In this document: positions 6,795-31,123 of the stretch, in pieces
Layout: each line of letters starts with the position of its first letter
How positions within the stretch are numbered: the first letter of the stretch is position 1
From: Acholeplasmataceae bacterium
GTDB taxonomy: Bacteria; Bacillota_I; Bacilli_A; Acholeplasmatales; Acholeplasmataceae
DNA length: 64,000 nucleotides
Assembly: GCA_021108415.1 (NCBI GenBank)
Contig: JAIOQX010000002.1
Location: 186,001 to 250,000, forward strand
Direction: 5' to 3'
Made by a program: the position numbers and the translations under genes
Notes under the pieces: generated by a model
Told to the model about the DNA's origin: nothing
The model's database searches: none
The model's input: the letters and a program-made list of their open reading frames with translations, nothing else

Positions 6795-7919
6795 TTATAA
6801 ATATGTGAAAGAAAGTATTTGACTAGTCTCAGAAGCATTTCCTACAAAATCTATTGCTTGAACTTTTATCTGATACGATTGTCCTTTTATTAGACGATCA
6901 AAAGTATATTGATTAAGATTGGCAAAATCATAAAGCTCATCATCCACATAAATCGCATACTTTTCTACACCATAGTCATCACTAGATGGATCCCAAAAAA
7001 TAGTGTTTTTTAATTGCGCAATCTGTAAACCCTCGACTTGAGAAGGAATTTCTTTATCTATAGTTCCATAGTCATACTTATAAACTCTCACATAATCAAT
7101 TTCAAAAGCTGTTGGAAAGATTGAATCATCAACTGTTCCACCAAATCCACCACCTAATGCTAAATTCAAAATCAAGAAAAAATCTTGATCAAAAGGAAAT
7201 GCTTCGTAATATGCTACATCTTGATTAAATTGTGCTGTATATCTAAATGTAGCAAATGAAACACCATCTACGTAAGTAATGATTTCTCCTGGGTTCCAAA
7301 TAATTTCATATGTGTGGAACTCAGTTTCAGCGGTTGGTACAGTGATATCATATCCGATTTGTGTACCAGTTTGATGATTGAATTTTTCAGTATGAATAGT
7401 TGAAAATACATTTTGTGGATTTCTACCAACATATTCCATGATGTCTATTTCACCACTATTTGGCCAACCTCCATAAGCATTCATTGTTGGCATCATCCAA
7501 ATTGCTGGCCATGTGCCTGCACCAGTTGGCATTTTTGCTGAAACAACAACTCTACCATAACGAAAATCACCTTTATATTTAGTGGTTAATCTACTAGATG
7601 TATAACTTCTAGTTAAATAGTCTTCTTTTATTGCTGTTATAACTAGTTTTCCATCAACAATTTCAGCATTTTTATCTGTGTAGTATTGAACTTCATTATT
7701 ACCACCACCATAATCATTGATTTCAAAATTCCATTTATCTAAATTGATTTCCTCTTCCTCAAATTCATCAGCCCAAATACATACCCAACCGCCTTCTAAA
7801 GTTGGTTGATTACATCCTTCTACTGGTAGAATTGGGTCTATTTGATTGTTTATTTCTTCTGTTGGATTACATCCAACTAAAATAAATAACACAAAAATTA
7901 TATTTAAAAATTTTTTCAT
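6795..7919 (-). CDS. Secreted GH16 beta-glucanase lipoprotein (laminarinase-type)
   Basis: This enzyme hydrolyses internal beta-1,3- (or 1,3-1,4-) glucosidic bonds outside the cell. It has 374 aa: a lipoprotein signal with lipobox LVGC (Cys17), a GH16 jelly-roll (~40-285) and a C-terminal fibronectin-III-like domain (~290-374). The catalytic signature GEIDIME is intact, with E157 as nucleophile and E162 as acid/base. Aromatic GTWPAIWM and the GWPNS lead-in are typical of laminarinase-like members. It is the last gene of the glucan operon, 2 bases after a permease gene, and ends before the terminator at 6621-6666. Exact linkage preference cannot be read from sequence. Confidence 0.94.
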   Translation of the reverse strand: MKKFLNIIFVLFILVGCNPTEEINNQIDPILPVEGCNQPTLEGGWVCIWADEFEEEEINLDKWNFEINDYGGGNNEVQYYTDKNAEIVDGKLVITAIKEDYLTRSYTSSRLTTKYKGDFRYGRVVVSAKMPTGAGTWPAIWMMPTMNAYGGWPNSGEIDIMEYVGRNPQNVFSTIHTEKFNHQTGTQIGYDITVPTAETEFHTYEIIWNPGEIITYVDGVSFATFRYTAQFNQDVAYYEAFPFDQDFFLILNLALGGGFGGTVDDSIFPTAFEIDYVRVYKYDYGTIDKEIPSQVEGLQIAQLKNTIFWDPSSDDYGVEKYAIYVDDELYDFANLNQYTFDRLIKGQSYQIKVQAIDFVGNASETSQILSFTYL

Positions 7920-7921: not shown

Positions 7922-8854
7922 TTATTCTCCTGTAATTCCAGTTCTATCGATACTTTCTACAAAGAACCTTTGTGCAACAAAGTATAACACAAGAAGTGGT
8001 AATATCGTTAACATATTGCCAGCTAACATAATTGCTTCGTTTAATTCCGCACCAGATGTTCCGGGAGGGAACAGTGTTTCATAACTTGATCTAAATGCCT
8101 GTAATTTAAGCGGTAAAGTAATTCTACCACCAACATAAAGTGAAGTTATGAAAGTTTCATTCCAATACCATACAAAGCTAAATAAGAAAACAATTAAAAA
8201 CGATGGTATTGCCAACGGAATTGCAATTCTTGTAAAAATCTTTAGTTGTGATGCTCCATCCACTTCTGCTGATTCCATTAAAACACTTGGAATCGTTTTA
8301 AAGAATTGATAGAAAATCAATATGTAAATTGCTGCATTGACACCTTGTCCAAAGATAGCAGGATAAATCATGGATTTTTGTGTGCTCATAAGTCCTAAAT
8401 TCTTAAAAATGACCATGTTTGCAACCATCGTTACTTGTGATGGTAGAATAAATGTTGCTAACATTAAAACAAATAATATATTTTTAAGGGGAAATCTATA
8501 TTTTGCAAACCCATATCCAATAATTGCTGATGATATCGTTACAGATATTGAAACTTTTAAAACATATGAAGTTGTTCCAATAATAGATCCTGGCAATTCT
8601 AAGACTTGTAATGCTCTACCATAATTTTGAAATTGTAGGCTCGATGGTATCCATTTTACACCTGGATTAATCAAATCATCTACACTCATGAAACTATTCA
8701 CTGTCATAAATAAAACTGGATATAAATAAATATAACTAAAACTGATTAATAATGTATATATAACAAATTTATAAATAAATCCATCCGTAAAATTCATCCC
8801 AAAAAGGAAATGTCTAGATTTAGATTTTAAAATTTTATAGTCGAGTTTATTCAT
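7922..8854 (-). CDS. Carbohydrate ABC permease, MalG-like (pair 2)
   Basis: This 310-aa integral membrane protein has about six helices. The EAA loop that contacts the ATPase is MESAEVDGASQLKIF through PLAIPSF (~193-217). It is the MalG/LplC-type half of a heterodimeric sugar channel. It overlaps the MalF-like gene at base 8854, so translation is coupled. The RBS is AGAAAGGAG. It belongs to the oligosaccharide-type CUT1 permeases. No ATPase gene lies in the operon, so a shared MsmX/MsmK-type ATPase from elsewhere in the genome is expected (inference from CUT1 systems). Confidence 0.92.
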   Translation of the reverse strand: MNKLDYKILKSKSRHFLFGMNFTDGFIYKFVIYTLLISFSYIYLYPVLFMTVNSFMSVDDLINPGVKWIPSSLQFQNYGRALQVLELPGSIIGTTSYVLKVSISVTISSAIIGYGFAKYRFPLKNILFVLMLATFILPSQVTMVANMVIFKNLGLMSTQKSMIYPAIFGQGVNAAIYILIFYQFFKTIPSVLMESAEVDGASQLKIFTRIAIPLAIPSFLIVFLFSFVWYWNETFITSLYVGGRITLPLKLQAFRSSYETLFPPGTSGAELNEAIMLAGNMLTILPLLVLYFVAQRFFVESIDRTGITGE

Positions 8855-9909
8855 TATCTATTCTCCTTTCTTCTTGCTGAAAGGATTAAAATGAAAATAC
8901 CCATAATAATTACCATGAGTATAAAATATACCCAAGCAATTGCTGCTGCATAACCATATCCAAACCAAAAGTTTGAATCTGGTGCACCCACTAACATATG
9001 TTGTCTTGCTAAATCTAAAATGCTACCTGGTTCAACAAATAAGCTCATTGAAACAACGATATAAATTACGCTGACGCTAATTAAAGGTTTAATCGATGGT
9101 AGAGTGATTTTCCAAAAACGATCCCATGGTGATGCACCATCAATTGATGCAGCTTCATAAATTGATGGATCAATTTTTTGAAGCCCAGCTAAAAAGATAA
9201 GTATTGGAATACCTGCATACCATAAAATAAGTAACATAGATGTCAATATTGCTTCTATAGGATTGGCTATCCATGGTCCTAAATTTTGAGAAATATATGC
9301 AATAACAGAACTATCTTCTAATGCTGGGATCGATGTTGCATTTTGATTATTCAATTCAACAATAACTGGACCTGTAGAAATGATTACTGGAAGAAAGAAA
9401 ATTGTTCTCCAAATACCTTTTAATTTAATAGGATTATTGATTAGTACAGCGATTAAAATTGAAAACACAACAATCAAAGGAACTGCGATAACCATTTTAC
9501 CTACATAAGTACCAAATAAAGGTAGTAATGATTGACTTCTAAATACGTTTAAATAGTTCGTAAAGCCTATGAATGTTGTTTCAACACCGGTTTCTAAACT
9601 ATAATAAGCTTCATTTAAACTTAAATATAGAGAATAAAACATAGGGTATAATGTGAAAATTAAAAATCCAATAATCCAAAGCATAATAAACGTAATACCA
9701 TAGAAAGCTTCTCTTCTTTTTCTTGTTACATTAATTTTTAAAAAACTAAATAGTGTTAAAGTTAACCCCTCTCTTCTAATTAGAAAATTATGTTCTAAAA
9801 TATATTTTGTTTTGTCAATAAGTTTTGATAATTTTCTTGTGTGGAAATTTCTTAAGACTTCCAAAATCTTATGATATGATTGTGCTATATTTTTTAATAT
9901 ATTTTTCAT
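8854..9909 (-). CDS. Sugar ABC permease, MalF/LplB-like (pair 2), with N-terminal extension
   Basis: The 351-aa permease has its first membrane helix only at ~70-95 (starting after KRREAFYG), preceded by about 65 charged, non-membrane residues that typical LplB-type permeases lack. The EAA loop is YEAASIDGASPWDRFW through PSIKPLI (~251-277). Start and stop overlap its neighbours (ATGA with the upstream gene at 9906-9909), so it is translated in a coupled row. With the MalG-like protein it forms the second channel of this operon. The N-terminal extension may contact a partner such as the upstream DUF5696-like protein (speculative). Confidence 0.92.
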   Translation of the reverse strand: MKNILKNIAQSYHKILEVLRNFHTRKLSKLIDKTKYILEHNFLIRREGLTLTLFSFLKINVTRKRREAFYGITFIMLWIIGFLIFTLYPMFYSLYLSLNEAYYSLETGVETTFIGFTNYLNVFRSQSLLPLFGTYVGKMVIAVPLIVVFSILIAVLINNPIKLKGIWRTIFFLPVIISTGPVIVELNNQNATSIPALEDSSVIAYISQNLGPWIANPIEAILTSMLLILWYAGIPILIFLAGLQKIDPSIYEAASIDGASPWDRFWKITLPSIKPLISVSVIYIVVSMSLFVEPGSILDLARQHMLVGAPDSNFWFGYGYAAAIAWVYFILMVIIMGIFILILSARRKENR

Positions 9910-12296
9910 CCTAGCACCACCTTATAATCTCTCATATCAACTGTTTGGCCATCTATGGTCTTTTCTTCAAAATTATAATTAATATAGATGATAACATTAT
10001 TTGAATATGAAACTTTTACAAATCCAGTATCCAACACTTCACGATTTGATATTGATGCTCCGATGACGTGTGATAAAGCTTCATTAATATAATCATATGT
10101 TTGAATAATTTCTTCTTCATAATCTGATCTTGTTGTAGTGTAAAACATTGAAGCATTAGTATATCTCATTTTATATGTATCCTCTTCTGTTAATAAATAA
10201 CTTGGATTCATACCAAAATCAACCATAGTAAGTAATCTATCTTGTCCCATAGCATTGAAATTAAGATATGGTATGTAATAAGATATACTACCCTTTAAAA
10301 TTAGTGGAATCAGAGGAATTAAATCTGAATAGTAATCATATTGTGCATTTGTTATTGGCATATCCAGATATCCACTCAAATTATCATAAAAATATTGGTT
10401 TGGTCTACTTAGTAATACTTGATCATACATTGATACAATATCTTCATAATAGCTCAAAGATTGCGATCTTTCATAATTCTGGCCATCATAATAACTAAAT
10501 AATGTTGAGCCTATTGTGTTTAAATATAATCCTGATATACCTAAATCTTCATAGAAATCATTATCACTAACTGAGAACTTATAACTTTCTTCTGGATATA
10601 TATAGTATACTTCAGTCAATTGAGCATTCAGACTACGGTAATTTCTCTCCATCTTAAGTCTTGATAATGTTTTTGAAACATCTTGAGCATATGATAATCT
10701 GTTGGTTAATTCTGAACCTTGAACATAATCATTATCAAGATATACAGTATTATTATCTGATTTTATAGTTTCAAATAAATCTTGATAATCACCTTTGTTG
10801 GATATTTTAGAGCGGTATGGAGCTTGAAAAACAAAACCATCTTTGCTCCATCCATTTAATTGTACTTGCTGATTATTGATACCAGCTGTTTTAAATGATT
10901 GATAACTATTGTAGACATCATTAACAGTGGTCATGACAACAGTAGTTGTGCCAATAAATGATTTTTCAGTATCATTCATGATGTAACTTAAATGTAGCGG
11001 AATTTGATTGCCCACAATTTTTTCATTATCAGTTAAGATACCTCTTTCAATTAAAATATCACGATATGCTTTTGCCATGCCTACATAACTAGCATCTTCA
11101 TCTGATAGGAAATTATAATTAATTTTAAAATTACTTTCCGTCAAAGCCTCATTTATTGTATCATTACCATCACCGGCTTTATTAATAATATATCTATATA
11201 TACGTCTAACATTATATTTAGCACCTATTCGATGATATCTTGAATTATTACCCCAATACTGTGCCTGTAAACTCGTTACTTCTGCACCTTCTTCAATTTC
11301 TACAAGATAACCGTTTTCATTTTGTGCATGAACCATGCCAAAAATAGGAACTGATAATTGTGCAATAGAACTAGTGCCATATCCAAAATCAGCACCATAA
11401 AATTGAGCTTGAAATGTTGTATTATGTGCCTTGTCCATTCTAACTAATGCTCCAATCCCATCTGGAATCATCATGTATCCTGGAATATTATCTTCTCTTG
11501 CTGCACCTAAATATGGAAATATAGAAATTGAAAGCAGTCTATAAATATCTCCATATTCTTCGATTGTTTCAACGGGAATATAGATGCTTAAAATACCATT
11601 AATTAAAGAAATTTCAACTTCTAATTTTATATCAATTTCTTTTAAATCTAGAAAGACTGTAAATTGAGTATTACTGTTTTTTTGAACTAACGTTGATACT
11701 CTTCGATTTGAATAACTTCCTGCTTCTAATTGATAAGGACTTAAAGGATCAGTTTGACCTTCTCTTATAGACCCATCTGTTATATACTTAGCCTCAGCTA
11801 AAGTATACAAAGAAGCTGTAGTAATCGTTGATGAGGATACATTTTGACTTCTTACATAATCAACCCATAGCCCGGAATTCATCAAATTTCTAGTTGCAGT
11901 GTTATCTTCTCTTAAACCGCTTAAACCTTGAAATTCTGGTCGTGAAGACCATAGGTAACTTGTTTCTTTATTATAAACCATCATAGAAAAGGAATCTTTT
12001 TCAAAATAGACAGTTAATTCAGGCGTGTCAAACATTTGTTCGAATCCTAAATCAAATATATCTTGACTATCAAAACCTAAAATAAAATCATCATGGTATA
12101 TATCTAGCACTGCTTGATCTACTTGATCTTTTTGTGTATATCTTGAAGATTCTAAAAATATTTGATTAATATAATTAAAATTAGACTCCACTTCTTGTTG
12201 GTTTCCTACTATAGGATGGTTATATCCATAGGTTATAACTAGAAGACTCATGATAAACAAAAATATGATAAGTATATATTTAGCATATTTAACCAC
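9906..12296 (-). CDS. DUF5696-like membrane-anchored extracellular protein
   Basis: The 796-aa protein has one N-terminal membrane helix (~5-24) and a large outside part, so it is anchored rather than lipidated. The segment MMIPDGIGALVRMDKAH (~270-290) resembles the hallmark of DUF5696 proteins, which occur in Firmicutes carbohydrate ABC operons; this is a recollection without a search. The N-terminal half is beta-rich and the C-terminal half (~390-750) has features that could form a TIM-barrel, as in glycoside-hydrolase-like folds, with no catalytic pair I can assign. It starts at GTG with AAGGGAG 10 bases upstream and overlaps its neighbours. Function unknown; the context points to glucan handling or uptake. 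Confidence 0.75.
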   Translation of the reverse strand: MVKYAKYILIIFLFIMSLLVITYGYNHPIVGNQQEVESNFNYINQIFLESSRYTQKDQVDQAVLDIYHDDFILGFDSQDIFDLGFEQMFDTPELTVYFEKDSFSMMVYNKETSYLWSSRPEFQGLSGLREDNTATRNLMNSGLWVDYVRSQNVSSSTITTASLYTLAEAKYITDGSIREGQTDPLSPYQLEAGSYSNRRVSTLVQKNSNTQFTVFLDLKEIDIKLEVEISLINGILSIYIPVETIEEYGDIYRLLSISIFPYLGAAREDNIPGYMMIPDGIGALVRMDKAHNTTFQAQFYGADFGYGTSSIAQLSVPIFGMVHAQNENGYLVEIEEGAEVTSLQAQYWGNNSRYHRIGAKYNVRRIYRYIINKAGDGNDTINEALTESNFKINYNFLSDEDASYVGMAKAYRDILIERGILTDNEKIVGNQIPLHLSYIMNDTEKSFIGTTTVVMTTVNDVYNSYQSFKTAGINNQQVQLNGWSKDGFVFQAPYRSKISNKGDYQDLFETIKSDNNTVYLDNDYVQGSELTNRLSYAQDVSKTLSRLKMERNYRSLNAQLTEVYYIYPEESYKFSVSDNDFYEDLGISGLYLNTIGSTLFSYYDGQNYERSQSLSYYEDIVSMYDQVLLSRPNQYFYDNLSGYLDMPITNAQYDYYSDLIPLIPLILKGSISYYIPYLNFNAMGQDRLLTMVDFGMNPSYLLTEEDTYKMRYTNASMFYTTTRSDYEEEIIQTYDYINEALSHVIGASISNREVLDTGFVKVSYSNNVIIYINYNFEEKTIDGQTVDMRDYKVVLG

Positions 12297-14322
12297 GGTT
12301 AATCAACTCCCTTAAAATGTCTGCAAATAGTCCATAAACTTCATTTAATAACAAATAAACAATGAACAGTACTGCAACAATCATTAATGCAGTAAATATT
12401 GAGATTAAAATATTACCAATGGTTGGTTTCATATCATAGAAATGAATTTCTTTAACCATTGCGATGAAATAAATAGCAGTAACAGCTAACCCTATAATCA
12501 ATATAGTGTCATATATGAATGATTCATTATAAGTCAATCCATTAGAAATAATTGCCAGAATTGGGAGTGTAATAATCATTGGTAATAATGTATATGCAGA
12601 TGCTTGATAAACATCACTTAATTTACCTTCTCCATCACGAATACTAGAAACTAGATAATTAGCCACAACCCAAAGTATGAATGGTACGAAAATTGTAACC
12701 ATTTGTTCAAATAGATTTATTTCTGATGGTATTTGATTATTAAATAAGAAACTTGTTCTATAAATCCATAAAATATAAGCTAAGAAAAATAATAGTAAAT
12801 AGATGGTTGCAGTAAAATTAGATCCTTTTTTCTCTCTTTTTATACCATAATAACCATCAGCTGGATTTTTGAATATATAAAACGGGAATACCAATTCTTG
12901 ATAAATCTTATATTTATTTATATATATTTTTAATTTTTTAATCGGAGATGTTAAAAATCTCATAAAATGTGTGAAATAATTTACAAAGTATAAAGCAATA
13001 CTAATCAATAAAATTGAAATAATAATTTCACCACTACCTAATAACATCTCATTTCTAACTTCCCAAAAGGCATTAGAAAAACCGTCTTGATCTCTTGCAA
13101 CTTGATAATATTCCATTGCTTGTTTATAATCCTCATTAGCAAAATATGCATTTCCTATTCCTTTATTTGCTAAATCAAATAGACCGTTCATTTTTAGAAC
13201 TTCTTGCCAAGGTTCCAATGATTCACTATATTTACCCTCTTGATAAAGACTAATCGCAAAATGAACTAAATCCGAAAATTCAGTTGGGATAAATATTTGT
13301 AATGCTGATGTTTCTTGATCAAGTGCATAAATATTATTTTTTGAATCAACGGCAATACTTGTAGGAGATTTAAATAAACCTTTTTGATTACTAACATCTT
13401 GACCACTAAAAACAAATAACACAGATCCATCTGGAGCATATTCAGTAATATATCCTTCTGATGTTATTGTAAACACTGTGTCATATGGACCAACAAATAA
13501 ATCTTCTGTTGAATCAAATCCCCATACTGACTCATTGTAAACAAAATTAGCTATATTTAATTTTAAATAACCATCACTACCTTTAGTAGTTGTTAAAATA
13601 AGACCATCATGATCTACTGCTATATTGTAGACAGGATCTGGAATCATTTGGAACCATTGACGTCTTTGTTCTTCATCAAATAACATATATTTTAATATGT
13701 TATCCCAAGTATTTGGAATGGTATTACCCCCAAAGAAGCCAAAGAACATACCAGAATTTTCATATTCTGCAAGTCCATTAATGTTACCAGCAAGTAGCAT
13801 ATAAACATTATCGCCTTTATCGGTAATAATTTTTGTAGGATCAAATGCATCTTGATCTGTGAAATATGGAGTATTTGTAGGTTTTTCATATGTGTTTTCT
13901 ACAATGTAAGTTGCTTGAATTTCATCATAAACAAATTTCAAGCCCATTTTTAATCCAAAATCTGCAACATACAAACTTCCATCTTCACCAACATGAACTC
14001 CTGTTGGTTCATCTAATATGTCTTCACCAATAACTGTAACTACATCATCTTGCAAACTATATTTAATAATACGATGATTTCCATAATCTGCGATATATAT
14101 GTTATCATTTTGATCAACTGTTAAATCTTTTGGTTCATTCAATTCATATCCAGCAAGTTGTTCTTGTATAGATAAGGGAATATAAGCATCTTGAGTCCAT
14201 ACCATACGATTTAGCGCACTACTATACGTATATGTAGAATATGGTAGTCCATTTGCTTCTACCTTAAATGATGGGATGAATACTAATGTAAATATAAAGA
14301 ATAATATAAATAGTTTTTTCAT
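12289..14322 (-). CDS. NHL-repeat / TPR / Yip1-domain membrane protein
   Basis: The 677-aa protein has a signal peptide (1-23), then an outside NHL beta-propeller with blades such as PKDLTVDQNDNIYIADYG (~64), PTGVHVGEDGSLYVADFG (~106) and PTSIAVDSKNNIYALDQ (~320). A TPR-like pair follows (~355-420), then one helix (~433-450) and a C-terminal multi-helix Yip1-like region (~480-677). It overlaps the permease gene by one base and the DUF5696-like gene by 8, so it is made together with the importers. The propeller could sense or hold glucan or an importer, with Yip1 as membrane scaffold. This is inference; no enzyme motif is seen. Confidence 0.78.
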   Translation of the reverse strand: MKKLFILFFIFTLVFIPSFKVEANGLPYSTYTYSSALNRMVWTQDAYIPLSIQEQLAGYELNEPKDLTVDQNDNIYIADYGNHRIIKYSLQDDVVTVIGEDILDEPTGVHVGEDGSLYVADFGLKMGLKFVYDEIQATYIVENTYEKPTNTPYFTDQDAFDPTKIITDKGDNVYMLLAGNINGLAEYENSGMFFGFFGGNTIPNTWDNILKYMLFDEEQRRQWFQMIPDPVYNIAVDHDGLILTTTKGSDGYLKLNIANFVYNESVWGFDSTEDLFVGPYDTVFTITSEGYITEYAPDGSVLFVFSGQDVSNQKGLFKSPTSIAVDSKNNIYALDQETSALQIFIPTEFSDLVHFAISLYQEGKYSESLEPWQEVLKMNGLFDLANKGIGNAYFANEDYKQAMEYYQVARDQDGFSNAFWEVRNEMLLGSGEIIISILLISIALYFVNYFTHFMRFLTSPIKKLKIYINKYKIYQELVFPFYIFKNPADGYYGIKREKKGSNFTATIYLLLFFLAYILWIYRTSFLFNNQIPSEINLFEQMVTIFVPFILWVVANYLVSSIRDGEGKLSDVYQASAYTLLPMIITLPILAIISNGLTYNESFIYDTILIIGLAVTAIYFIAMVKEIHFYDMKPTIGNILISIFTALMIVAVLFIVYLLLNEVYGLFADILRELINRG

Positions 14323-15203
14323 TATTTAATACCTGAATGGGCCATCGTATTCATGACCTTACCTTGTAAGAATATAAATAAAATTAAGTTTGGAACAAAC
14401 ATAATCAGTGAAGCTGCTGCAGCCATCCCTTGCCCAGCAACATTATTTCCTTGAATAGATGTCAAACTTTGCATATAAAATGCTAACGTTCTTTTTGATT
14501 CATCATTTATATATAAAACTGATGTTGATACATCATTCCATATAATTTGAAATGCTAAAATACCTACAGTTGCGATTGCAGGTGCGATGACAGGTAAAAC
14601 AATTTTCATAAAGATTTGCATTTCAGAAGCACCATCAATTTTAGCAGATTCTATAATTTCATTTGGTGTTTGATCGATAAATTGCTTGATTAAAAACATA
14701 GCAACTGGCATAACGATGACTGGTAAGATATGCGCTGCATATGTGTCAATTAAACCCGATCTGGCAATAATTAGATATCTAGGTATTTGAACCGCAATTG
14801 GTACAAACATTAAGGCTAGCGTATTGATTTCAAATAATACTTTCTTGCCTTTGAATTTTAATTTAGATAAAGCATATGCAGAAAATGCTGTTATAAAAAT
14901 TGCTAGAGTCACTCCAATAATTGTAACCAAAAGACTATTTACAAGATATCTAGAAAACGGAACTCCTGATGCAGAAACTAATCTTGATAACTCATTAAAA
15001 TTATCAAAAGTAGGATTTCTTACAAAAAATCTAGGTGGATATGCAAATAGTTCACTTCTTGGCTTAAATGCATGATTAAAGATAAACAATATCGGTAAAA
15101 GCATTAATGCTGCAAAAGGAATTAAGAACATAAAGAAAGGTAGTTGACTTCTATGAAGTCTAGTAGGATTTATTTTTGTACCTTGAAAACTAGCTGATGC
15201 CAT
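14322..15203 (-). CDS. Carbohydrate ABC permease, MalG-like (pair 1)
   Basis: This 293-aa CUT1 permease subunit has about six helices. Its EAA loop is IESAKIDGASEMQIF through PVIAPAI. The N-terminus carries a short cytoplasmic lead (RLHRSQLPFFMFLIPF). I start at ATG 15203, with AAGGAGTGATTTT upstream; a GTG at 15221 would lie inside the previous gene without a proper RBS. The AAGGAG also encodes the last residues of the upstream permease, so reinitiation is likely. It pairs with the 15208-16092 product. Confidence 0.92.
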   Translation of the reverse strand: MASASFQGTKINPTRLHRSQLPFFMFLIPFAALMLLPILFIFNHAFKPRSELFAYPPRFFVRNPTFDNFNELSRLVSASGVPFSRYLVNSLLVTIIGVTLAIFITAFSAYALSKLKFKGKKVLFEINTLALMFVPIAVQIPRYLIIARSGLIDTYAAHILPVIVMPVAMFLIKQFIDQTPNEIIESAKIDGASEMQIFMKIVLPVIAPAIATVGILAFQIIWNDVSTSVLYINDESKRTLAFYMQSLTSIQGNNVAGQGMAAAASLIMFVPNLILFIFLQGKVMNTMAHSGIK

Positions 15204-15207
15204 AAAA

Positions 15208-16092
15208 TCACTCCTTTTCACCTAATATGCGAAATGTTACTTTTGAAATAAAATAAACCATTAAGAGTAACACAACACTAACTGTTGCTGCATAACCCAT
15301 CATATACCTTATAAACCCAAAATCTTCAATGTGATTGACAATGAGTTGGCCAGCATATTGTGGTGTTGGATTTGATCCGGATAATTGAACTCCAATACCT
15401 CCAGCTTGAAATGTTGTAACAACTGCCATAACAGCGCCAAATAACATTTGTGGCTTCATCGATGGAATCGTAATATAAAATATTTCTTGTGCACGATTTC
15501 GAATGCCGTCTACATAAGCAGCTTCATACAATGTTTGATCAATATTTAATACACCTGCAAGCATTGCCAAAAAGCCAACACCCATAGAACTCCATAAACT
15601 TACGACAATCATAATTGTCATTAAATAATCTGGTGATTGCAAAAATTGAATAGGCTCTAATATAACGCCCCAATTTAGAAGTATACTGTTTAAATACCCT
15701 TGAGAATCACCAGAAAAAATGATTCGCCACATAGATGCCATTGCAACCCCCATCGTAAGTGATGGAGAGTATAAAATAATTGCAAAAACTGTGCGGTATT
15801 TTTGTGGAATTTGTGCCAAAACCCACGCAAGCACAAATGATAATAAATATCCAACTGGTCCTACAATTAAAGCAAACTTTAATGTATTTGATAAAACGTA
15901 TTGCATGAATACTGTATCCATAGTAATCAATTCGATATAATTGGTAATGCCAATAATTGTTGGGGCTTGAATAGCATTAAAATATGTAAATGATAAGAAA
16001 ATTGCAGCAATTACTGGAACAATAATAAATATAAAAAACAGAGTCCAGTAAGGTAATATAAACCAAGCTGGATGATTCATACGTCTAGTCAT
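15208..16092 (-). CDS. Sugar ABC permease, MalF-like (pair 1)
   Basis: The 294-aa protein has six predicted helices. Its EAA loop [17 protein letters not shown] through PSMKPQM lacks the usual Ala-Ser of the DGAS motif (it reads DGIRN), a small deviation at the ATPase contact. It overlaps the end of the 1022-aa binding-protein gene by 8 bases and has GGAGG 6 bases before the ATG. The gene ends with TGA just before the next permease. It forms the first channel of the operon and probably takes sugar from one of the two binding proteins encoded directly upstream. Confidence 0.92.
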
Positions 16093-19000
16093 GATCCACC
16101 TCCGTCAGCCATTGTTCTATATTATAAATGCTTGGAACAATATATTCTTTAATAATTTCTCCGTTTTTTGTATATCCAAATTCAGCCATCTTATAAATAA
16201 TTTCTCTATTAGATACTCTCACTGCTTCATCTAATGCTTGTCGTGGATTTGTTCCATCAAAAACAATAGATGTCCAGGCATTACTAATAGAACGCTCAAC
16301 CATATATGCACCAGGTATTCTTGATGCTTCAACTCCATATTCCCATTGCTTTAAAATTACATTTTTATATTCATCTGGCATAGAAATACTTTTAAATGCT
16401 TCTATATTAGCGGTATTCCAAAAATAAGCTTGTCCATATGTAGATTGCAATAAAAATGAAAATTCACTTTGAACTGATGTTGACATCCACCATTTTAAGA
16501 AATCCCAAGACTCTTCAGGATATTCAGTAGAACTCATAATCATAGATGATTGCCCTCCTACAGAAGAGTATCTTACGATTTCATCAAGTTCTTCGTTATA
16601 AACACCTGGATGTAAATCCATCTCCCATAGACCATCAAGTTCAACTGCTGCTGTTTCTAACAAAATATATGTTGATAAATTAGAAATACCAATAGGCAGT
16701 AAACCATATCTAAAATGATTATAAAAATTGGGAACATATTTCGGAAGGTTATATAAAGTGAATAAATCACTCATTAAAGTTACACCTTCTAGTGTTTCTT
16801 CAGAATTGATTGCTGTAGACATACCATCATCTGCATATAAATCTCCACCAAATTGATAAATAAATGGTAGTGTTGCAACAAATGGTTTAAGACCACTATA
16901 TTGAGCAATTGGAACAAAGTAATTCATACCATAACTTTGTAACAATGGTAAAATTTCAATGATTTCTTCCCATGTCTGAGGGATTTCAGTGATACCTATA
17001 CTATTTAAGATATCTTTTCTATAGTAGGTCACCCAAAAATCTTGTGTTTCTGGCAAACCAAAAACGCCATCTTCAAAAACATATGGGATCATTGCTCCTT
17101 TTGTGAAGTTAGTCACTGTATCTTCATATCCTTGAAATTGTCTTAAATCTAATGATGCATCTCTTATCGCAAACTCATAAGGAATCCAATGGTCTACACC
17201 AATAGCTAAATCTGGTGCTTGATTTGATGCATTAGCTAAAATTAATTTATTTTGATCAGGCATTTGTGATAAAGTAACTTTTCTATTACCTTGATAATAT
17301 TGATCAATTAATGCTTGCATAACTTCTATATATTGTCTTGGATGATTAACCCATACAGTAAGTTCATCATCATTTCTATCTGATGCAGAATATGGATTAT
17401 TAATAAATGATAATACTAAACGTTTTGCACCTTCAAAGAAACGAATAAATATATTTGCATATGGTTTTGCGATCTCGACATCACCATGGACAATCATACG
17501 TTCCATTTCTAGATTAGTTCTTAATAACCTTTGCATTAGATCGCCTAATATTTGATTGATAGATGAATCTCCATCAGAAAATTGAACCATCATTGAAGGT
17601 AGCTTGTTGATATCAGATGCAATATTATTCAATCTTTTTGCTGCAACCATTAAATTTGCTATTTCGGATGGTTGTTCAATATCAGATAATGATAATAAAG
17701 TAACATAAGTTTCTTCTAAAAGATTTGCCCAACTTATAATATTATCAGATGCTTCAGGGAAGTATGCTTCTATATCCCAGTCTCTATACTTATCAGTCCC
17801 ACCACTTGTATAACGTTTAACATCTAAAGCTAATGCTTGAATATTACTCATAACATATTGTACAGTTTCAATAGTGTCACGATAAGGATAATTTACTGAT
17901 TCTAATACGATTTCATTCATACCAGATTCTAAATAAACTTTTATAGCATCACCATTTGGATCCGCTAATGTACGATTAATAAAATTTGTTGTATATGGAA
18001 AAGCATAACTTTCAAATAAATCAAAAGGAACTTCGCCATTAATCTTTATTTTTCTAAACACTGTCATATCTTTAATCATATATTGTCTATATTTGAATGA
18101 TAAATGATAAAACCCAGCTTCTTCGACTTCTATTTCATAAGCAATTTCATCCCCTGAATTTTGCCATGAATCACCAAATATGGTATTCAATCTTAAAAAC
18201 TGAGTGTCATAGTATAAATTAGATGGATCTTGTTCTGTTCTAAGTCTTATTGAAGGATTATTACGATACAATATATCTCTAGCTGATATTGTAATTTGAT
18301 TATCTATAACTTTAGCATTAGGATACAAATCTAAATATGAATCATATGTTATAAATGTTTCGTTTTCTACATAATAAGCTTGACCAATCAATAGTTCTTG
18401 ATTTACAAATGAGATTGATATTTCATCGCCTTGTTCTAAATAAAAAGCAAAATATCCAGGATGCATCCCGCGATAGTCATAAATATTTTGATATGCCCAT
18501 TCTTTTACTTTATGAGAACTTGGCATTATTTCATTTTCGTAACGATCTAAAGTAAAATCATATGTGTCATATACCCATCTAGATTTTAATACAAGTGTTT
18601 GTGCTTCATAAAATTGTGGTACACCATTTATTGCAATCTCAATTTGTGCTTGATCAATATTATCTTGGAGTTCATAATAATCAATTGCCAAATAAAATAA
18701 TCCTGATTCACTTTCGTTATGTGTCCATGTTATATCACTATTTTCTCTTAGTAATAGAACATCATTGCTATTTGATTTAGATGCTTGATAATCTTGTACT
18801 ATTGCACCATAATCAGAGTCGTTTACGTCAATAAAATCACCAGACATCTCTAATGTGGTGACTGTATTTGTAATTTGAATGTCTTGAATATCATTTTCAA
18901 TATAAGCTTCTTTTAATTCGCTATATAAGGTTTGATTATAAGCTTGTGTTAGACTTTGATTTGTATAATCATAGGAAAGCTCTTGTGTTTCATAAAAATC

Positions 19001-19153
19001 ATGATTTGAAGATACCTTAAAAAAAGAAACCGTTATAATCGTGACCAGTAAGAGTGAAAACGTCAATATCAGCCATTTTTTTATAGTAAGCGTTTTAAAA
19101 AATGCACTAAGATTTACCATTCCTTTTTTTAAAATATCAATTGTTTTTTTCAT
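16085..19153 (-). CDS. Membrane-anchored fusion: carbohydrate-binding-like domains plus solute-binding protein
   Basis: The protein has 1022 aa, over twice the usual solute-binding size. A membrane anchor lies at ~26-46 with no lipobox. Two beta-sandwich-like regions (~140-265 and ~335-450, each with a GxFYx[11 protein letters not shown] start and an [16 protein letters not shown] strand) resemble CBM6/35-type modules. A helical linker (~465-590) leads to an MsmE-type binding domain (~596-1022), recognisable by LTVWVNHP and [17 protein letters not shown]. It precedes the first permease pair and overlaps it. It probably binds long glucan by the front modules and passes chains to the binding domain. 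This is inference; similar giant binding proteins exist in Firmicutes operons. Confidence 0.82.
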
Positions 19154-19216: not shown

Positions 19217-20689
19217 CTATTCTGTGTCTGAACCTAATGTTTCTAGTTGTCCTTGGACAATTTCATTGGCTTTATTTTCCCACTGAACAGCATATGTTTC
19301 GACTGCTTGTGGTCCAGCTAGAACTAGATTTTCCCAATTATATGGATTTTCAGGATCACTAACCCATGCCCAAAAATCTTTATATCCAGGTAACCATTTA
19401 TCTAAATCTGGCTTAGCATATTCAATACGATTAAATGTATAATCAATACCTTCAATACCATCTACTAAATCATAAACTCTATCCCATACTCCAGGATAAT
19501 CTGCAACAGGGAAACGATCTAAATAAGAAGGAGTTTCTCCAGCTGCTTCAGCTGCAGCAAAATCATCTTCTAGTAGACTTAATCTAGCATCCCAACCATC
19601 TTCACCAAATGTCATCCATTTAGCAAGTAAATATGCTTCTTCAGGATGATCGGTTTGACTTGATACTGCTTGATAATCTAGTATTGTTGGTGGAAATAGT
19701 CCTGCGTCCCCGCTTGGATAAGGCCAAAAGCCTAGATTTATATCACTATCATCTTTAGCTGCATTGATCACCCAAAATTGCCATGAACCTTCAATATCCA
19801 TAGAAGCAACACCAAATTGAATAAGGTATTGTTGAAGAATTGTGTTTGCGTCATAAACTTCTTGAGTAAATCTTGTTGTAGTCCCATTTGTTAATTGGTG
19901 CATTTCTACTTTTTGTTCCATAGCATAAACCCAATCATCAGATGTGTAATTAAACTGTGTGCCATCCCATGTATCATATTGAACATTTTCATCTTCCATC
20001 ATCGGCCATACTTGTTGAAAATCAGGACTTCCATACCAAGTATCTAAACCAACAACTGTGTTAGCTGGATCAACTAATGTATCATCAGCAGGATTAATTT
20101 CAAAATTCTTTATTGCATTTGCAATTTCGATAAATTCTTCAAATGTCCAATCTTTTACTGGATAGCCATCATTATCTATACGATATTTACCATCAACTGT
20201 GATTAAGTTTGCTTCTTCAAAAATATCTAAGTTAATCATAATACCTTTTAGAAATTGGAAAGATGGAACTGCAAAACGTTTACCATTATAAACGCCTGTT
20301 AATGCTATATTTTCGTAAACTAAATCTGTATCAGCATCAGCATCCCAATATTCTGCAACATCTAATGTTAATCCAGCATTAATAATTGTAGGTACATTAT
20401 CAGTAGCAAATACATCTGGCAACAACCCAGCTTGAGCAGCAGTAATCAAATTACCAGTAAATGCATCACCACTACCTTCAATATCTGTTCTTAATTGAAC
20501 TTTTATATTAGGATATTTTTCTTCAAAGGCATCAATCATCTTTTGATTAAATACTGGATCACCCCAGTCAGCATATGATAATTGGATAGTTTGAACAGGA
20601 CCAGTTGGATTTAGTGGATCATCACCACCACATGCAACTAATACAAATCCCAATATGAATACCATTATTAGAGAAACTATTCTTTTCAT
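19217..20689 (-). CDS. Extracellular solute-binding lipoprotein, MsmE/UgpB-type
   Basis: The 490-aa CUT1 binding protein has a lipoprotein signal ending LVAC (Cys ~20). Typical features are the N-terminal strand IQLSYADWGDPVFNQKMIDAFEE, the DVFATDN hinge strand, and HPEEAYLLAKWMTFG near the C-terminus. AGGAGG precedes the ATG. It follows the multi-CBM lipoprotein by 17 bases and is followed by a hairpin. It likely delivers beta-gluco-oligosaccharides to one of the two permease pairs. Many Trp and Tyr residues (for example DTWYGSPDFQQVW) would suit stacking on glucan rings. Confidence 0.93.
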   Translation of the reverse strand: MKRIVSLIMVFILGFVLVACGGDDPLNPTGPVQTIQLSYADWGDPVFNQKMIDAFEEKYPNIKVQLRTDIEGSGDAFTGNLITAAQAGLLPDVFATDNVPTIINAGLTLDVAEYWDADADTDLVYENIALTGVYNGKRFAVPSFQFLKGIMINLDIFEEANLITVDGKYRIDNDGYPVKDWTFEEFIEIANAIKNFEINPADDTLVDPANTVVGLDTWYGSPDFQQVWPMMEDENVQYDTWDGTQFNYTSDDWVYAMEQKVEMHQLTNGTTTRFTQEVYDANTILQQYLIQFGVASMDIEGSWQFWVINAAKDDSDINLGFWPYPSGDAGLFPPTILDYQAVSSQTDHPEEAYLLAKWMTFGEDGWDARLSLLEDDFAAAEAAGETPSYLDRFPVADYPGVWDRVYDLVDGIEGIDYTFNRIEYAKPDLDKWLPGYKDFWAWVSDPENPYNWENLVLAGPQAVETYAVQWENKANEIVQGQLETLGSDTE

Positions 20690-20706: not shown

Positions 20707-23226
20707 TTAGTTTAAATCTTGATATATTAACACTTCATGAATTGTAAACATACCAATTGTAGATATAAGATCTCCACCTAAAGTACCAAAGTCTAATTCT
20801 AATTTAACATTTGTTACTTCAGTTGTCACTGTAAATTCAACATAAATGACATTTGTTTCTGTAGAAACTACTGAGAAATCAACAAAACCATCAGCCAATA
20901 TTGAATTATATCCATCATTTGGTAATACTAAATTTACTCTTAAGTCTCTATCAACAGATGAATCAAGTGCAATTTTTAATACATATTTACCTGGAGCCAA
21001 ACTATCAATAAGTTGATAGAAATGAGGTGTATATGGTTGTGATCCTAATGCAGTTACATCAATAATAGCACTATTTTCACCTAAAACCATTGTCCCTGAA
21101 CCTTCACCAGCATTATCATACATAAAGTATGGAACTGTTGTAGCATCACCATTAACAATAAGTTCAACTGCTTCAGCATTATCTTTTTCTTTGATTGAAA
21201 TATTGTCAAGTGAAACAGTTCCAGCAGCAAATGATCCTGTAGCACCCATTTCAAAACTTAATTTCGATCCCATAATGGCATCAGTAATCATGACATCAAC
21301 AGTAAATGTTTGTACTGAAGTCGTTAAATCAAATGAACCTTTATTATCTCCTTCAAGAGGCGTTCCAATTAATTCAACATTAATATTTCTTGCTGCAGTT
21401 GCACTTGCATCAAATGAAAGTGTATAAGTTTTACCAGCTTCTAAATCAACTAATTGATTAAATTGAACAGCCCAGAAAGCTTCACCAGCTTTATCGATAG
21501 CTATATCAAATGAACCATTTGTGCGATCTAGAGTAACTGTTGGAGCATCACCCCAATTTTGGAACCATAATTCCCAACCATTGTTAAATTGACCATTCAT
21601 AATAGGTGCATCTAATAATGCTTGTTGTAATTTAACTTCACTAAAAGTAACTAGTCCATCAGCAAAACCATCTTGTGATCCTAATTCAAAATTTACTTTG
21701 ACTTCATGAGTAGCATTAGTAACTGTAAATAAAAACTCTAGAGTTGTTTCTTCAGTTAATAATTCTTGTCCATCAAATCTTGCATATTCTACCCATGGAT
21801 CACCGTAGCCAACAGCTACATTTATTTTTCTTGCAACTTCAGCTTGAGCAATAACTGTTAATCGATATGTGTTACCTTCAACAAGTTCAATACCTTCTTG
21901 GAAGAATTGAACAGCCCATGCAGCATCTCCACCACCAGTAATATCTAGTGAATAAGTTCCAGCTGTTGTATTAAGCTCAGTTACAACTACTGGAGCAGGA
22001 GTTGACCAATAACCATCTTGTTGCCAGAAACCCCATTCAGGTGTTTCAGTATTAAGTTCAGTTTCAAATGAAGGATTTACAATTAAATTAGTATCACTAA
22101 ATTGCATACCTACTACGTCAAGAACAACAACAAATTCAGCTTCATTTCCAGCAGCATCACTTACAGTATACGTTAGGGTATATGTAGCTGGAGCTGATGT
22201 ATCTACTGATTGTACGACTGCATCACTTGAATCTTTAATAACTACTACAATATCTTCTGTTAAGTCTTCGTCAACTACATCATATGCAGTAACGCCAGTC
22301 ATTGGATCAAATTCAGAATTAACTAATATTGATTTAGAATCAACTAATCCAGTAAATTCTGGAGCTGTTTCATCAAGATCAGGTGTAGATTCTGTTATTG
22401 CAATGTCATCAAACCATAAAGTTGCATTCACTGCATTACTCCCTATAGTACCCAATTCAAATAAGATACCACCAGCTTGATTATCTTGCTTCATAGTGAA
22501 TTTATAAGAATATGTAGCCCATTCAGTTGTAATTGTTTTAGTAACAGTTAAACCAGTTTTGAAATCATTCCAATAAGGAGCACCATCTAAGATTTCACCA
22601 ACTTGTAAATTGATTATTTTTTCTGCACTAGCTTTTGCTTTAAATGAAATTTCATAAGTAACTCCATTTTCAAAAGGTACATTCATTTGACCAAATCTTG
22701 GTGTCCAAACATTAGCACCAACAACAACTTCAGCTTTAAGTGCAAGATTTCCATCAAAATCTTCAGTAGATAAAGTCATTTCTGCTCCATCTGCAACATA
22801 AACTGCTTTGCCATCCCAACCTGCAGTACCTTGTGAGAAATCAGCATTGATTAGCATTTGTCCTTCAACAGCTGCTGGTTCACTAACCGTAACCATTCTA
22901 AACACTTGTGCTAATATACCTTCAACTTCTACTTCATACTTGATTGCGTGTTGCCCTGTCACTGTTGTATCTAATACATCATCTGTAATAATTGTTGTAG
23001 CTACGTGAGAATACGTAATTAAGTCTGAATAATCTACATCATTATTACCTGTCGCTGTAACGCCATCTAGGACATTGAAAGTTGAATCAAAATCTAGAGT
23101 AACATTCTCAACCCCGCTAAATGTAATGGCTGACAATACGACATCAGGTGTTTCGGTTTCACCACATGCAGCTAAAGTAAAAACAGCCAAGACCATTAAT
23201 ACGGTAAATATAAATCTTTTTTTCAT
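20707..23226 (-). CDS. Surface lipoprotein with four CBM4/9-like modules and Ig-like domains
   Basis: The 839-aa lipoprotein (lipobox LAAC, Cys ~21) has no catalytic domain. After an N-terminal Ig-like part (~30-118) come four CBM4/9-type jelly-roll modules, each opening with an N-x-x-F/D strand: LINADFSQGTAGW (~125), LIVNPSFETELN (~385), PIMNGQFNNGWELW (~545) and LIVNGDATTVPYF (~690). A DUF5011-type Ig-like domain (~285-375, AYDVVDEDLTEDI...SDAAGNEAEFVV) separates the first two. CBM4 members bind beta-1,3-glucan, which fits the locus. It probably tethers glucan to the cell. It overlaps the phosphorylase gene by 4 bases (ATGA). Confidence 0.88.
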   Translation of the reverse strand: MKKRFIFTVLMVLAVFTLAACGETETPDVVLSAITFSGVENVTLDFDSTFNVLDGVTATGNNDVDYSDLITYSHVATTIITDDVLDTTVTGQHAIKYEVEVEGILAQVFRMVTVSEPAAVEGQMLINADFSQGTAGWDGKAVYVADGAEMTLSTEDFDGNLALKAEVVVGANVWTPRFGQMNVPFENGVTYEISFKAKASAEKIINLQVGEILDGAPYWNDFKTGLTVTKTITTEWATYSYKFTMKQDNQAGGILFELGTIGSNAVNATLWFDDIAITESTPDLDETAPEFTGLVDSKSILVNSEFDPMTGVTAYDVVDEDLTEDIVVVIKDSSDAVVQSVDTSAPATYTLTYTVSDAAGNEAEFVVVLDVVGMQFSDTNLIVNPSFETELNTETPEWGFWQQDGYWSTPAPVVVTELNTTAGTYSLDITGGGDAAWAVQFFQEGIELVEGNTYRLTVIAQAEVARKINVAVGYGDPWVEYARFDGQELLTEETTLEFLFTVTNATHEVKVNFELGSQDGFADGLVTFSEVKLQQALLDAPIMNGQFNNGWELWFQNWGDAPTVTLDRTNGSFDIAIDKAGEAFWAVQFNQLVDLEAGKTYTLSFDASATAARNINVELIGTPLEGDNKGSFDLTTSVQTFTVDVMITDAIMGSKLSFEMGATGSFAAGTVSLDNISIKEKDNAEAVELIVNGDATTVPYFMYDNAGEGSGTMVLGENSAIIDVTALGSQPYTPHFYQLIDSLAPGKYVLKIALDSSVDRDLRVNLVLPNDGYNSILADGFVDFSVVSTETNVIYVEFTVTTEVTNVKLELDFGTLGGDLISTIGMFTIHEVLIYQDLN

Positions 23227-26200
23227 TTGTTTTCCTCCTTATTATAATAGACATCTATTTTTAAGACAGTTTTCTTACGAATGTCTTTTGCCCATTTTCC
23301 TTCAATAAATGATTGATCAAATTCAATGACTTGATCTTTTGTTGTTAATACTATCTTTTCGATATAAGCATCTTTATCATAAGTATTTATCAATAATTTA
23401 TTATGATATATTAGTTTAATATCTTTAAAAAGTGTTGTTTCAATTTTATGGTCTTTAAAAAAATCTTTATGTAGCTTCGGATTTAACTTGAATATCAATT
23501 TTCCATTTAAAAATTCAAATATATTTTTACCATAAAACATAAAACTAAACATTGATAACATTTCTGCTGTAGATCCAGATAGCCTAGAGACAAATCCTTG
23601 TCCATGTTTTTTAGAATCAGGATTTGAAGAAGTCACAATAAATGATGAGTTTTCTATAGGTGATCTTCCATAAACTTCAGGATCCATAAAACATGTATAG
23701 TTGGTTTTAATTTCTTCGTAAAATATGTCATATAAACCCGATTTTAGTAAGCCAAGTAAATATTTATAAGTCATATGTAAGAAATTTGATTCTCTTTCTA
23801 ACCATCCAGGTGTAAATGCTTTTAATCTACCAATTTCAAAAGATTCATCTTCTAAAGATATACTTGTTTGATAAAACTTATGTTTCTTATCATACAAATC
23901 TGAGCGCTTCACAGTATCATATATGGATTTTGCTTCTTCAGGTTTTGCTAAGTTTTTAAGATATCTAGCAGGGCCTTCTAAGAAACTAGGTAATGCTCTC
24001 ATTTTGAAACTTTTCACCTTAACTAAAGGTAAGCCATATTCTCCAATAATTTGATGATTATTTTCATCCATGATATCTTCAAACGATGTCGCCTCATATG
24101 TTAAATATGTTGGCATGATATCACTTAAGGATTTAGCTTTATGAACTGCTTTTTCTAATTCTTCTTCAATTTTAGAAATAACTTCAAATATTTCTTTTGA
24201 ACTCACTTGCGATATATTTGTATTTCTATTTAACCTTTTTTCTCGATATGATTCAATCGCATTCATTCTTAGATTCCAATGATTAAAATCATCTGTTTCA
24301 TTAATTACATATAAATTATTCATTAATGTTTTCGTATCTGTTAATATATCTAATTTATAATCTTGATATTTCTTAACGTTATTTCTTACATAAGAAACTA
24401 ATTTGATAAGTTCGAATGTTTCTGATATTCCTGAACCAAATAAACCTGGTATTCCATTACATGCATCATTCCATCCTGGTTTATTTCCCTCATAGGAAAG
24501 TCCAATACCTTTAGGATCTAAATGAGCATATTTATTTAGAATAAGTGTTAATAGTTTTGATATAACTGGAATTTCTATTAACTTATTTTTTTCGTTCAAC
24601 CATGGATCTATTTCATTTAAATGTTTTACTGATCCAAATTGTCTAATCGTATTTTTATGTGTTTTGACATGTTTTTGACTTCTAGGTAAGACATAAGCAT
24701 TTGATTGATAGATTGTAACTTTTTGATTAAACAGCAAGTCTTCAACTAAATCCGGATATATAGATTCGAATCCTTCGATTAAATCTAATAGATAAGTAAA
24801 ATGGTCTTCCCAATAACCTTCCCCAAATGATGCTTTATATATAACTTTACTTTCTGAAAGAATTTTTTTAAACAATAACTTATCTAGATTTAAATCTTCA
24901 ATCATCATAAGTAATTTCCCAGGTGTATATGGTTTTTCAATTAAATCTGTAAGTTTTTGATCTAGTTTATGAGTATCACCTTCATATCTAAACTCAACAC
25001 CTTCGATAGATAACGGATTATACCCATCATCTTGAATAAACGATGCAAACATTAAAACATTAAATGTTTTAATGTTTGGAAAGAAAACCAAATCATTTCT
25101 TCTATTTTGAAGTACATCTCTAAAATTTCCATTTCCTTGAGAATAATAAGCTGGTTCTAGATTAAAGAAATTATAATCTCTTTCTAAATCTCCATGTTTT
25201 CTTGAATATACATAGTAAGTAACTTCGTTATCCTTTGTTTCCAACTGAATTGGATATCCACCTCGTAATACATTATCTAAATAACATTGTTTTAAATATG
25301 CGTCATAAATTGGAAAATTCGTTTTCGTTTCAATAGAACTTGTTATTTCATCATGTATTTGTTTATTTTCTAATTCTTTGTCTAAAAAATAACGAATATT
25401 GGTTTTTTTAACAAATTCAATTAGTTTTTCTTCTGTTTCACTGTATCCAAACATAGAAACAAACTGAAATTCTTCTCTTAATTTAAAATTATAATGAACC
25501 ATAGCTGCTGGCACTTGATTAACATGAGTTTGTTTTTGGTCAAGTAATTTATGATGAATAAAAGCATATGGAGTTTCTAATGAACTATCTTCTAAAAACA
25601 AAGCTTTATAGTCATAAATATATGTTGGTTTAACAGATGCAATTGAATGAATAAAATTACCTTCACTTATTTCATTGACTTCTGCTTGATCACCTGTTGA
25701 TCCTCTTAATGTATAAAATGTGTAGTCTTCAGTATTTTTAGTTTCCATCCAACTTTGTAAAAGATTTGATACTGCTTTATACCCACCATAATCAATACCG
25801 GTAGGTAATATTTGTGCGAGACCATCAACAATTTCTATTTGTCTTTCATCATGCTGGTGATTGATGATTTCAACTTTTCTGAGTAATGCTGCCATTCTTT
25901 CATTAGGAAGTGTGAAATAAGTAATTTTTACTGTTATATTCAATTTTTCAAATTTTTGAGATATAGCTACTTGATCTTGAAAAACCTCTAATGTTTGATT
26001 TTCATCTTTTTCTTTAAAACATTCATATACTTTATCTTCAATTTTTATAAATGTTCTAAACCCAATCTTTGAAACATAATGATATGCTGCATTAGCTGGA
26101 AAAAATTCCATAATCGCACCATTCTTATTTCTAATACCAAAAGACGATATCAACTGTCCTCTATTAACATAAAACGCCCATAAAGGCAGCCCCTTTAGAC

Positions 26201-26276: not shown

Positions 26277-26293
26277 TTTGCTCACCTACTTTT

Positions 26294-27407: not shown

Positions 27408-28129
27408 TTTTTATCACTTCTCTCATATACTTTAACATGCTCTATTTTGAATGATATCGGAAACATACCATCATCAATATTTCCACCCCAATTACCACCA
27501 ATAGCTAGGTTTAAAATTATATAAAATGGTTGGTCGAATGGCCATTGCTCTTTTGATGCATCCTTTTGCTTTTTAAATGTCACCATATGCAAATCATCAA
27601 TAAAAAATGATATTTCATTTTCACACCATTCAATACTATACAAATGAAACCCGTCTAGTAACTTACTGTTTTCATAAACATATGTTGGTTGATTTTGAAT
27701 GTTATGGTTAAATGATTTTGAGTGAAGAGAAAAATGGAAAAAGCCTTTATGATTACCAACATGTTCCATAATATCTATTTCTCCACATAATGGCCAACCA
27801 TTTTCATTAATATTTTCACCTAAAAGCCAGATTGCTGGCCAAGTCCCCATTCCTTTTGGCACTTGTGCCATAACTTCAACACGACCATATTTAATGTGTT
27901 TTTTATTCTTTGTTGTTATTTTTGCTGATGTATAATTTCTATTTTCAAATTTCTCTTTATGTGCAACAATATTTAATACACGGTCTTGTATAAATATGTT
28001 TTTCTCTTGATTCGTGTAAAATTGATCTTCATTATTTCCAAATCCATGACCACCAGTTTCAATATTCCAAATACTGAGGTCTAGCTTATTTTGATCAAAT
28101 AGATCTTGCCATACAAGTTTATAATCCAT
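27404..28129 (-). CDS. Cytoplasmic GH16 beta-glucanase
   Basis: The 241-aa protein is a bare GH16 domain. The catalytic signature GEIDIME is intact (E117 nucleophile, E122 acid/base), with GTWPAIWLLG and GWPLC in front. It starts directly at the fold (DYKLVWQDLFDQNKL) and has no signal peptide or lipobox, so it should act in the cytoplasm. The ATG at 28129 follows AGGAG by 6 bases; a longer reading to 28177 would overlap the cupin gene. It probably trims imported beta-1,3-oligosaccharides for the phosphorylases. Cytosolic GH16 enzymes are uncommon, as most are secreted. Confidence 0.9.
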   Translation of the reverse strand: MDYKLVWQDLFDQNKLDLSIWNIETGGHGFGNNEDQFYTNQEKNIFIQDRVLNIVAHKEKFENRNYTSAKITTKNKKHIKYGRVEVMAQVPKGMGTWPAIWLLGENINENGWPLCGEIDIMEHVGNHKGFFHFSLHSKSFNHNIQNQPTYVYENSKLLDGFHLYSIEWCENEISFFIDDLHMVTFKKQKDASKEQWPFDQPFYIILNLAIGGNWGGNIDDGMFPISFKIEHVKVYERSDKK

Positions 28130-28139
28130 AAAATACTCC

Positions 28140-31029: not shown

Positions 31030-31040
31030 TTTACCACCTC

Positions 31041-31056: not shown

Positions 31057-31062
31057 ATTTCC

Positions 31063-31090: not shown

Positions 31091-31123
31091 GTTTTTTTTC
31101 AAAAAAAATGAAACGCTTACATA

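Follow-up and report, generated by a model that had tools for sequence, protein, structure and literature searches.

Organization of the locus

The window, that is, the whole 64,000-nucleotide stretch of Acholeplasmataceae DNA that was analysed, carries a run of minus-strand genes that encode, in this order, an unknown protein of 1020 residues, a CBM4_9 lipoprotein, a solute-binding protein (SBP), a membrane-tethered SBP (SBPx), the ABC permeases P1a and P1b, an NHL-TPR-Yip1 protein (gene YIP), a DUF5696 protein, the permeases P2a and P2b, and a GH16 enzyme. Upstream of the run lie LacI, GH16, GH94-superfamily phosphorylase and GH30 genes; the enzymes neighbouring the module are of the beta-1,3-glucan kind, and the GH16, GH94-superfamily phosphorylase and GH30 genes suggest that beta-1,3-glucan is used here.

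The CBM4_9 lipoprotein (20707..23226, with three CBM4_9 domains by Pfam) is substrate-specific and the GH16 beta-glucanase lipoprotein that ends the run (6795..7919; Pfam GH16, 6.2e-23) is a substrate enzyme, and neither belongs to the core. The lipoprotein SBP (19217..20689), recognized from its sequence and its LVAC lipobox, has no Pfam match in this copy; homologues are found in 46 of the 48 complete loci, 39 of them with a lipobox. SBPx (16085..19153; Pfam SBP_bac_1, 6.5e-14) consists of an N-terminal transmembrane (TM) helix, an ectodomain of ~550 residues that has no Pfam match here, and an SBP domain at residues 611–895, and a lipobox is present in only 2 of its 48 homologues. The permeases make up two CUT1-type pairs: P1a (15208..16092) is UgpA-like (NCBIfam UgpA, 3.1e-14) and P1b (14322..15221) is of the UgpE/MalG-like CUT1 type (Pfam BPD_transp_1, NCBIfam UgpE), while P2a (8854..9909) and P2b (7922..8854) are assigned by Pfam BPD_transp_1. 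By a strict pattern, EAA loops were detected in 35, 45, 41 and 47 of 48 copies across the four permeases, and since they occur in both pairs, both would appear from their sequences to be ATPase-coupled. There is no ATPase gene within the module; one strong MalK-type ATPase is encoded in the source genome at C4:85185, on another contig.

The YIP gene occupies 12289..14322 on the minus strand and encodes 677 residues, and both its coordinates and its location in an ABC sugar-transport operon, with permease genes to both sides and SBP genes to one by Pfam and NCBIfam, agree with the initial annotation. Overlaps of 1 and 8 bp with permease genes had also been described: the sizes are correct, and the 1-bp overlap is indeed with the permease P1b, but the 8-bp overlap is with the DUF5696 gene (9906..12296) rather than with a permease.

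Domain architecture of the NHL-TPR-Yip1 protein

The domain order read from the sequence, an NHL propeller followed by TPRs and a Yip1 domain, was borne out by Pfam, AlphaFold2 and Foldseek and is complemented by hydropathy. After a signal peptide (about residues 4–22), a six-bladed NHL propeller (about residues 60–346) and two TPR hairpins (helix pairs, residues 348–409) are predicted to lie outside. These are followed by a TM helix (residues 426–444 by hydropathy, forming part of a long helix at 412–451 in the AlphaFold2 model), a basic linker predicted to lie inside (residues 445–502, with 11 K/R versus 3 D/E), and a Yip1 domain with five predicted TM helices (about residues 502–676, from AlphaFold2 and hydropathy). 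The ectodomain, placed outside by hydropathy and charge, contains 23 K/R and 62 D/E.

Structure prediction, which had been proposed as a check, shows the propeller to be present. The AlphaFold2 model, built from a 27-sequence alignment, has a mean pLDDT of 85.7, and its propeller is matched by Foldseek to TRIM71/Lin41, Thin, PknD and the designed six-bladed Pizza6 (best E 3.8e-14); solved propellers were also matched by sequence profile, and Pfam detects NHL repeats in the open reading frame with an E of 2.2e-17. The Pfam TPR_16 match (E 8.3e-6) is below its own cut-off. The Yip1 assignment likewise held: PF04893 matches residues 482–651 with an E of 4.5e-10 and 40.1 bits, over the curated cut-off of 28.6. 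No solved Yip1 structure was matched by sequence profile and the whole-model Foldseek matches shown are those of the propeller; the Yip1 fold of this protein is predicted from a Pfam match together with a modelled five-TM bundle. Conservation is highest in the TPR part and the link between it and the TM helix, as expected for a docking surface, and is lower in the cytosolic linker than in the outer TPR part.

YIP is a constant member of a seven-gene module

One genome per GTDB species was scanned with one conserved motif, which gave 515 loci with relatives, of which 80 were retained. Where the flank suffices, the order SBPx-P1a-P1b-YIP-DUF5696-P2a-P2b is near-invariant in these 80 loci; in two Lachnospiraceae loci the best P1b match lies at the cluster end. 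The module spans Acholeplasmatales, Izemoplasma, Haloplasma, Paenibacillus, Sutcliffiella, Halobacillus, Lachnospiraceae and Oscillospiraceae, so that its order is common to Mycoplasmatota and Bacillota (wall-less bacteria, Bacilli and Clostridia). In all 75 of 75 loci YIP runs into the DUF5696 gene, with a mode of -8 bp (45 loci), and the spacing between P1b and YIP has its mode at -1 bp (35/72 loci). LacI-type regulators are present or absent from locus to locus.

The 80 loci were found via YIP; an independent test begins at DUF5696, in a same-phylum sample. Here, 84 of 96 strong DUF5696 matches are preceded on the same strand by a YIP homologue, and the remaining 12 comprise nine in which YIP appeared on inspection of the flank, two contig ends and one real exception (locus L167, where YIP is absent and DUF5696 truncated). 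YIP therefore lies directly upstream of 93 of the 94 testable DUF5696 copies, and conversely all 64 testable full-length YIP genes adjoin DUF5696; by genome, DUF5696 occurs in 48, YIP in 47 and both in 47. In the genome search no more than three candidates were scored for each genome, and many loci are from metagenome-assembled genomes; the exceptions in the raw lists (9 YIP without DUF5696, 12 DUF5696 without YIP) were rejected as such, nearly all being due to the three-candidate scoring, split genes and contig ends. The evolutionary distances of YIP and DUF5696 correlate at 0.87 in a mirror-tree comparison that ignores shared ancestry, and this also holds for other module genes. The gene coupling counts likewise make no correction for shared ancestry, and other module genes are coupled too.

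Recurrent order and the DUF5696-based test together rule out a chance neighbourhood, and the import module, of seven genes, has the NHL-TPR-Yip1 protein as a constant member. The initial annotation had taken the overlaps as a sign of a stoichiometric partner, and a random context in homologues, which would have counted against it, was not seen. Tight gene coupling and a dedicated partnership are supported, far more by the fixed neighbourhood than by the two overlaps at this locus; the partnership may or may not be stoichiometric.

The YIP slot also exists in a split form. At locus L146 and ten other sampled loci it is filled by two adjoining genes, one for an NHL-TPR protein (about 480–935 residues, mostly near 490) and one for a Yip1 protein (about 213–253 residues; at L146 with a Pfam match of 1.3e-12 and 48.4 bits). 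In a 52-row DUF5696 tree the split loci form one deep clade and are separated from the fused ones by one change with 100/100 support. A single fission or fusion that kept the gene order is good evidence that both halves act together.

Modules beside different sugar enzymes

The source genome contains three DUF5696 modules, and its only three Yip1 domains all lie inside them. Besides the beta-1,3-glucan module of the window, the module at L145 adjoins a protein of the Glycoamylase family PF10091, which includes endo-beta-1,2-glucanases, and L146 is flanked by NamZ, GH3, a BadF-type kinase and a SIS-domain MurQ-like protein, a set for peptidoglycan-sugar salvage. NamZ-linked modules with a visible slot are all split, and some split modules are not NamZ-linked. 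Neighbours in other genomes include a phosphorylase with SOGP domains (of the beta-1,2-oligoglucan type, judged by Pfam names), GH35, GH43 and fucose isomerase. Carbohydrate enzymes are always near the module, and their variety argues that the module is general, with substrate choice presumably set by the SBPs and the enzymes. It is unlikely that the propeller is specific for one glucan, because the module also adjoins beta-1,2-glucan and peptidoglycan-sugar enzymes.

A glycosidase-like fold and probable loss of catalysis in DUF5696

The partner encoded directly after YIP is a 796-residue protein with an N-terminal TM anchor (Pfam DUF5696, 1.7e-129). Its AlphaFold2 model (pLDDT 90.1) comprises a beta domain, a barrel and a C-terminal beta domain and is matched by Foldseek to GH129 and GH101 glycosidases (E 1.4e-31, TM-score (target) 0.69); by sequence profile the match to GH129 is weak (E 0.011), and a single-sequence search returned no solved relatives. 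We surveyed acidic residues in an alignment of 61 DUF5696 sequences. Column 480, directly before a conserved GW motif, pairs in the weak profile alignment with an Asp mutated in a quadruple mutant of the GH129 enzyme NagBb, and no acidic residue occurs there in 59 sequences. The only column acidic in all clades is 692, in a helix. No conserved catalytic acid pattern is present across the 61 sequences, the nucleophile position having no direct alignment, and DUF5696 is probably non-catalytic in the GH129/GH101 manner, as far as these alignments tell; some subclades, which keep invariant barrel acids, could be active, as could an enzyme with unusual residues.

These observations bear on an alternative that casts DUF5696 as a working glycosidase, bound to the membrane and trimming glycans at the pore, with the NHL-TPR-Yip1 protein as its anchor or activator. 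The fold, the subclades with invariant barrel acids and the constant proximity of carbohydrate enzymes fit this scheme, whereas the NagBb Asp position and the single shared acidic column speak against it, DUF5696 carries a TM anchor of its own, and the neighbouring enzymes target beta-1,3-, beta-1,2- and peptidoglycan bonds, unlike GH129 and GH101. We consider it unlikely.

A candidate scaffold for two importers

We infer that the NHL-TPR-Yip1 protein and the probably non-catalytic DUF5696 may constitute a scaffold or receptor common to two CUT1-type importers, and regard the chances as evenly balanced that the former is a dedicated membrane scaffold of the glycan-import module. In such a mechanism, secreted enzymes such as GH16 would cut the glycan, and the lipoprotein SBP and the tethered SBPx would catch the oligosaccharides. 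The propeller/TPR ectodomain would bind the membrane-anchored DUF5696, which, probably no longer cutting, would hold or guide glycan chains, and the Yip1 helices would attach to one permease pair or to both, which would keep receptor and pores together. Both pairs would be powered by a common MsmX/MalK-type ATPase encoded elsewhere. The Yip1 family protein YknW of the Bacillus YknWXYZ system modulates ABC-transporter assembly (PMC4887032), a precedent that makes contact between Yip1 and an ABC transporter plausible by analogy.

The NHL-TPR-Yip1 protein would accordingly be a receptor-to-permease clamp, neither an enzyme nor a trafficking factor. The membrane-trafficking role raised initially finds no support in the gene context and was discarded; Yip1 domains also occur in the E. 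coli, B. subtilis and archaeal control genomes.

A large outer propeller fused to a multi-TM domain could suggest a glycan sensor that signals via the basic cytosolic linker or the Yip1 domain, and prokaryotic Yip1 homologues have been proposed as possible receptors (review, PMC6682643). This appears improbable: across the sampled loci no cytosolic signalling gene is conserved alongside the module, the LacI-type regulators vary, and the linker shows weaker conservation than the outer TPR part. The gene overlaps with both P1b and DUF5696, which suggest coupled translation, and the assembly role of YknW would suit a chaperone that inserts or pairs the permeases outside the working importer, but the conserved outer domain of ~400 residues exceeds what a membrane chaperone would seem to need, and we hold this to be quite improbable. 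A further idea is that the Yip1 domain forms a channel or transporter of its own, alongside the ABC permeases, for the glycan or for a coupling ion. Such a function has been proposed for Yip1-family proteins (review, PMC6682643), but it is very improbable here given the two complete-looking permease pairs already in the module.

If the scaffold reading is true, Bacillota and their wall-less relatives have a complex of two importers, the components of which have so far been recognized only one by one, as Yip1, DUF5696, SBP and permease families. The module offers bacterial Yip1 domains a concrete candidate role, in aiding ABC importers in glycan uptake, and its presence in culturable Paenibacillus and Bacillaceae makes this role open to experiment. 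A bolder version, which we find doubtful, is that the NHL-TPR-Yip1 protein and the retired glycosidase DUF5696 tie the two permease pairs into one surface supercomplex for long glycans, a single-membrane counterpart of SusCD-like systems, with clamping of ABC transporters as the ancestral task of bacterial Yip1 domains.

Comparison with known systems

In the literature searched, with most subscription journals outside its scope, DUF5696 is unmentioned and the assembled seven-gene dual-importer module is not described; within that literature, the parts are known families and the novelty lies in their assembly. Two candidate precedents were set aside: the table for the barley-glucan operon of Paenibacillus sp. 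JDR-2, considered as expression evidence, contains ordinary cassettes of SBP and permease genes that are not identified as this module, and the paper on the xanthan cluster of P. taichungensis makes no mention of Yip1, NHL or DUF.

DUF5696 has the same overall fold as GH129 and GH101 but differs in its ~10% identity, its N-terminal membrane anchor and the lack of their conserved catalytic acid pattern. The NHL-TPR-Yip1 protein resembles the Yip1 family PF04893 and eukaryotic YIPF proteins in its Pfam match over the cut-off and its five predicted TM helices, yet it has an extracellular propeller-TPR region and belongs to a bacterial glycan-import context, as opposed to the Golgi. As in Bacillus YknWXYZ, a Yip1-family protein is encoded with an ABC transporter; YknXYZ, by contrast, exports peptides and includes a membrane fusion protein, and the paper on it describes no propeller or TPRs in YknW (PMC4887032). 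Neither a membrane fusion protein nor a MacB-like permease with its own ATPase is encoded in the module. CUT1 importers such as UgpAE and MalFG with a common MsmX-type ATPase likewise combine an SBP with two EAA-loop permeases, and their ATPase is encoded elsewhere, as that of the module presumably is; unlike these, the module brings a second permease pair and a second SBP into the same unit, tethers one SBP to the membrane with a large extra ectodomain, and adds the NHL-TPR-Yip1 and DUF5696 proteins.

Components of the module and its surroundings

The membrane-tethered solute-binding protein SBPx (window 16085-19153), found in all complete modules at a length of 960-1040 aa, is composed of an N-terminal transmembrane segment, an ectodomain of ~550 aa and the solute-binding domain. 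The ectodomain has no Pfam match in the window copy, and gives weak CBM35/Golvesin_C matches in relatives. The run of genes is headed by a 1020-aa protein (window 23223-26285), likewise with no Pfam match, whose gene is kept upstream of that for the CBM lipoprotein in Acholeplasmatales modules. The same cluster contains a second GH16, a GH94-superfamily phosphorylase and a GH30 (window 27404-32471), an enzyme set consistent with beta-1,3/1,6-glucan breakdown.

Modules at other loci

At another site of the same genome, a module in which NHL-TPR and Yip1 are encoded by two adjacent genes (L146:1080-19667; G000:C3) adjoins NamZ, GH3, BadF-type kinase, MurQ-like and NagB-like genes. This module apparently imports peptidoglycan sugars from other bacteria; its host is Acholeplasma-like and presumably wall-less. 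A gene for a DUF624 (YesL-like) membrane protein follows P2b, the last permease gene (L146:6331-6972), with equivalents in NamZ-linked split modules.

A complete Acholeplasma-type module also occurs in a record titled as a Staphylococcus epidermidis MAG (L088), which is probably misnamed, since it groups with Acholeplasmataceae in the DUF5696 tree.

The sole real exception to the pairing of NHL-TPR-Yip1 with DUF5696 is L167 (L167:4586-9009; G041:C3), where GH30, a truncated DUF5696, P2a, P2b and GH16 are present and SBPx, the P1 permease pair and NHL-TPR-Yip1 are all missing. This locus looks like a decayed module that lost NHL-TPR-Yip1 and the DUF5696 N-terminus together.
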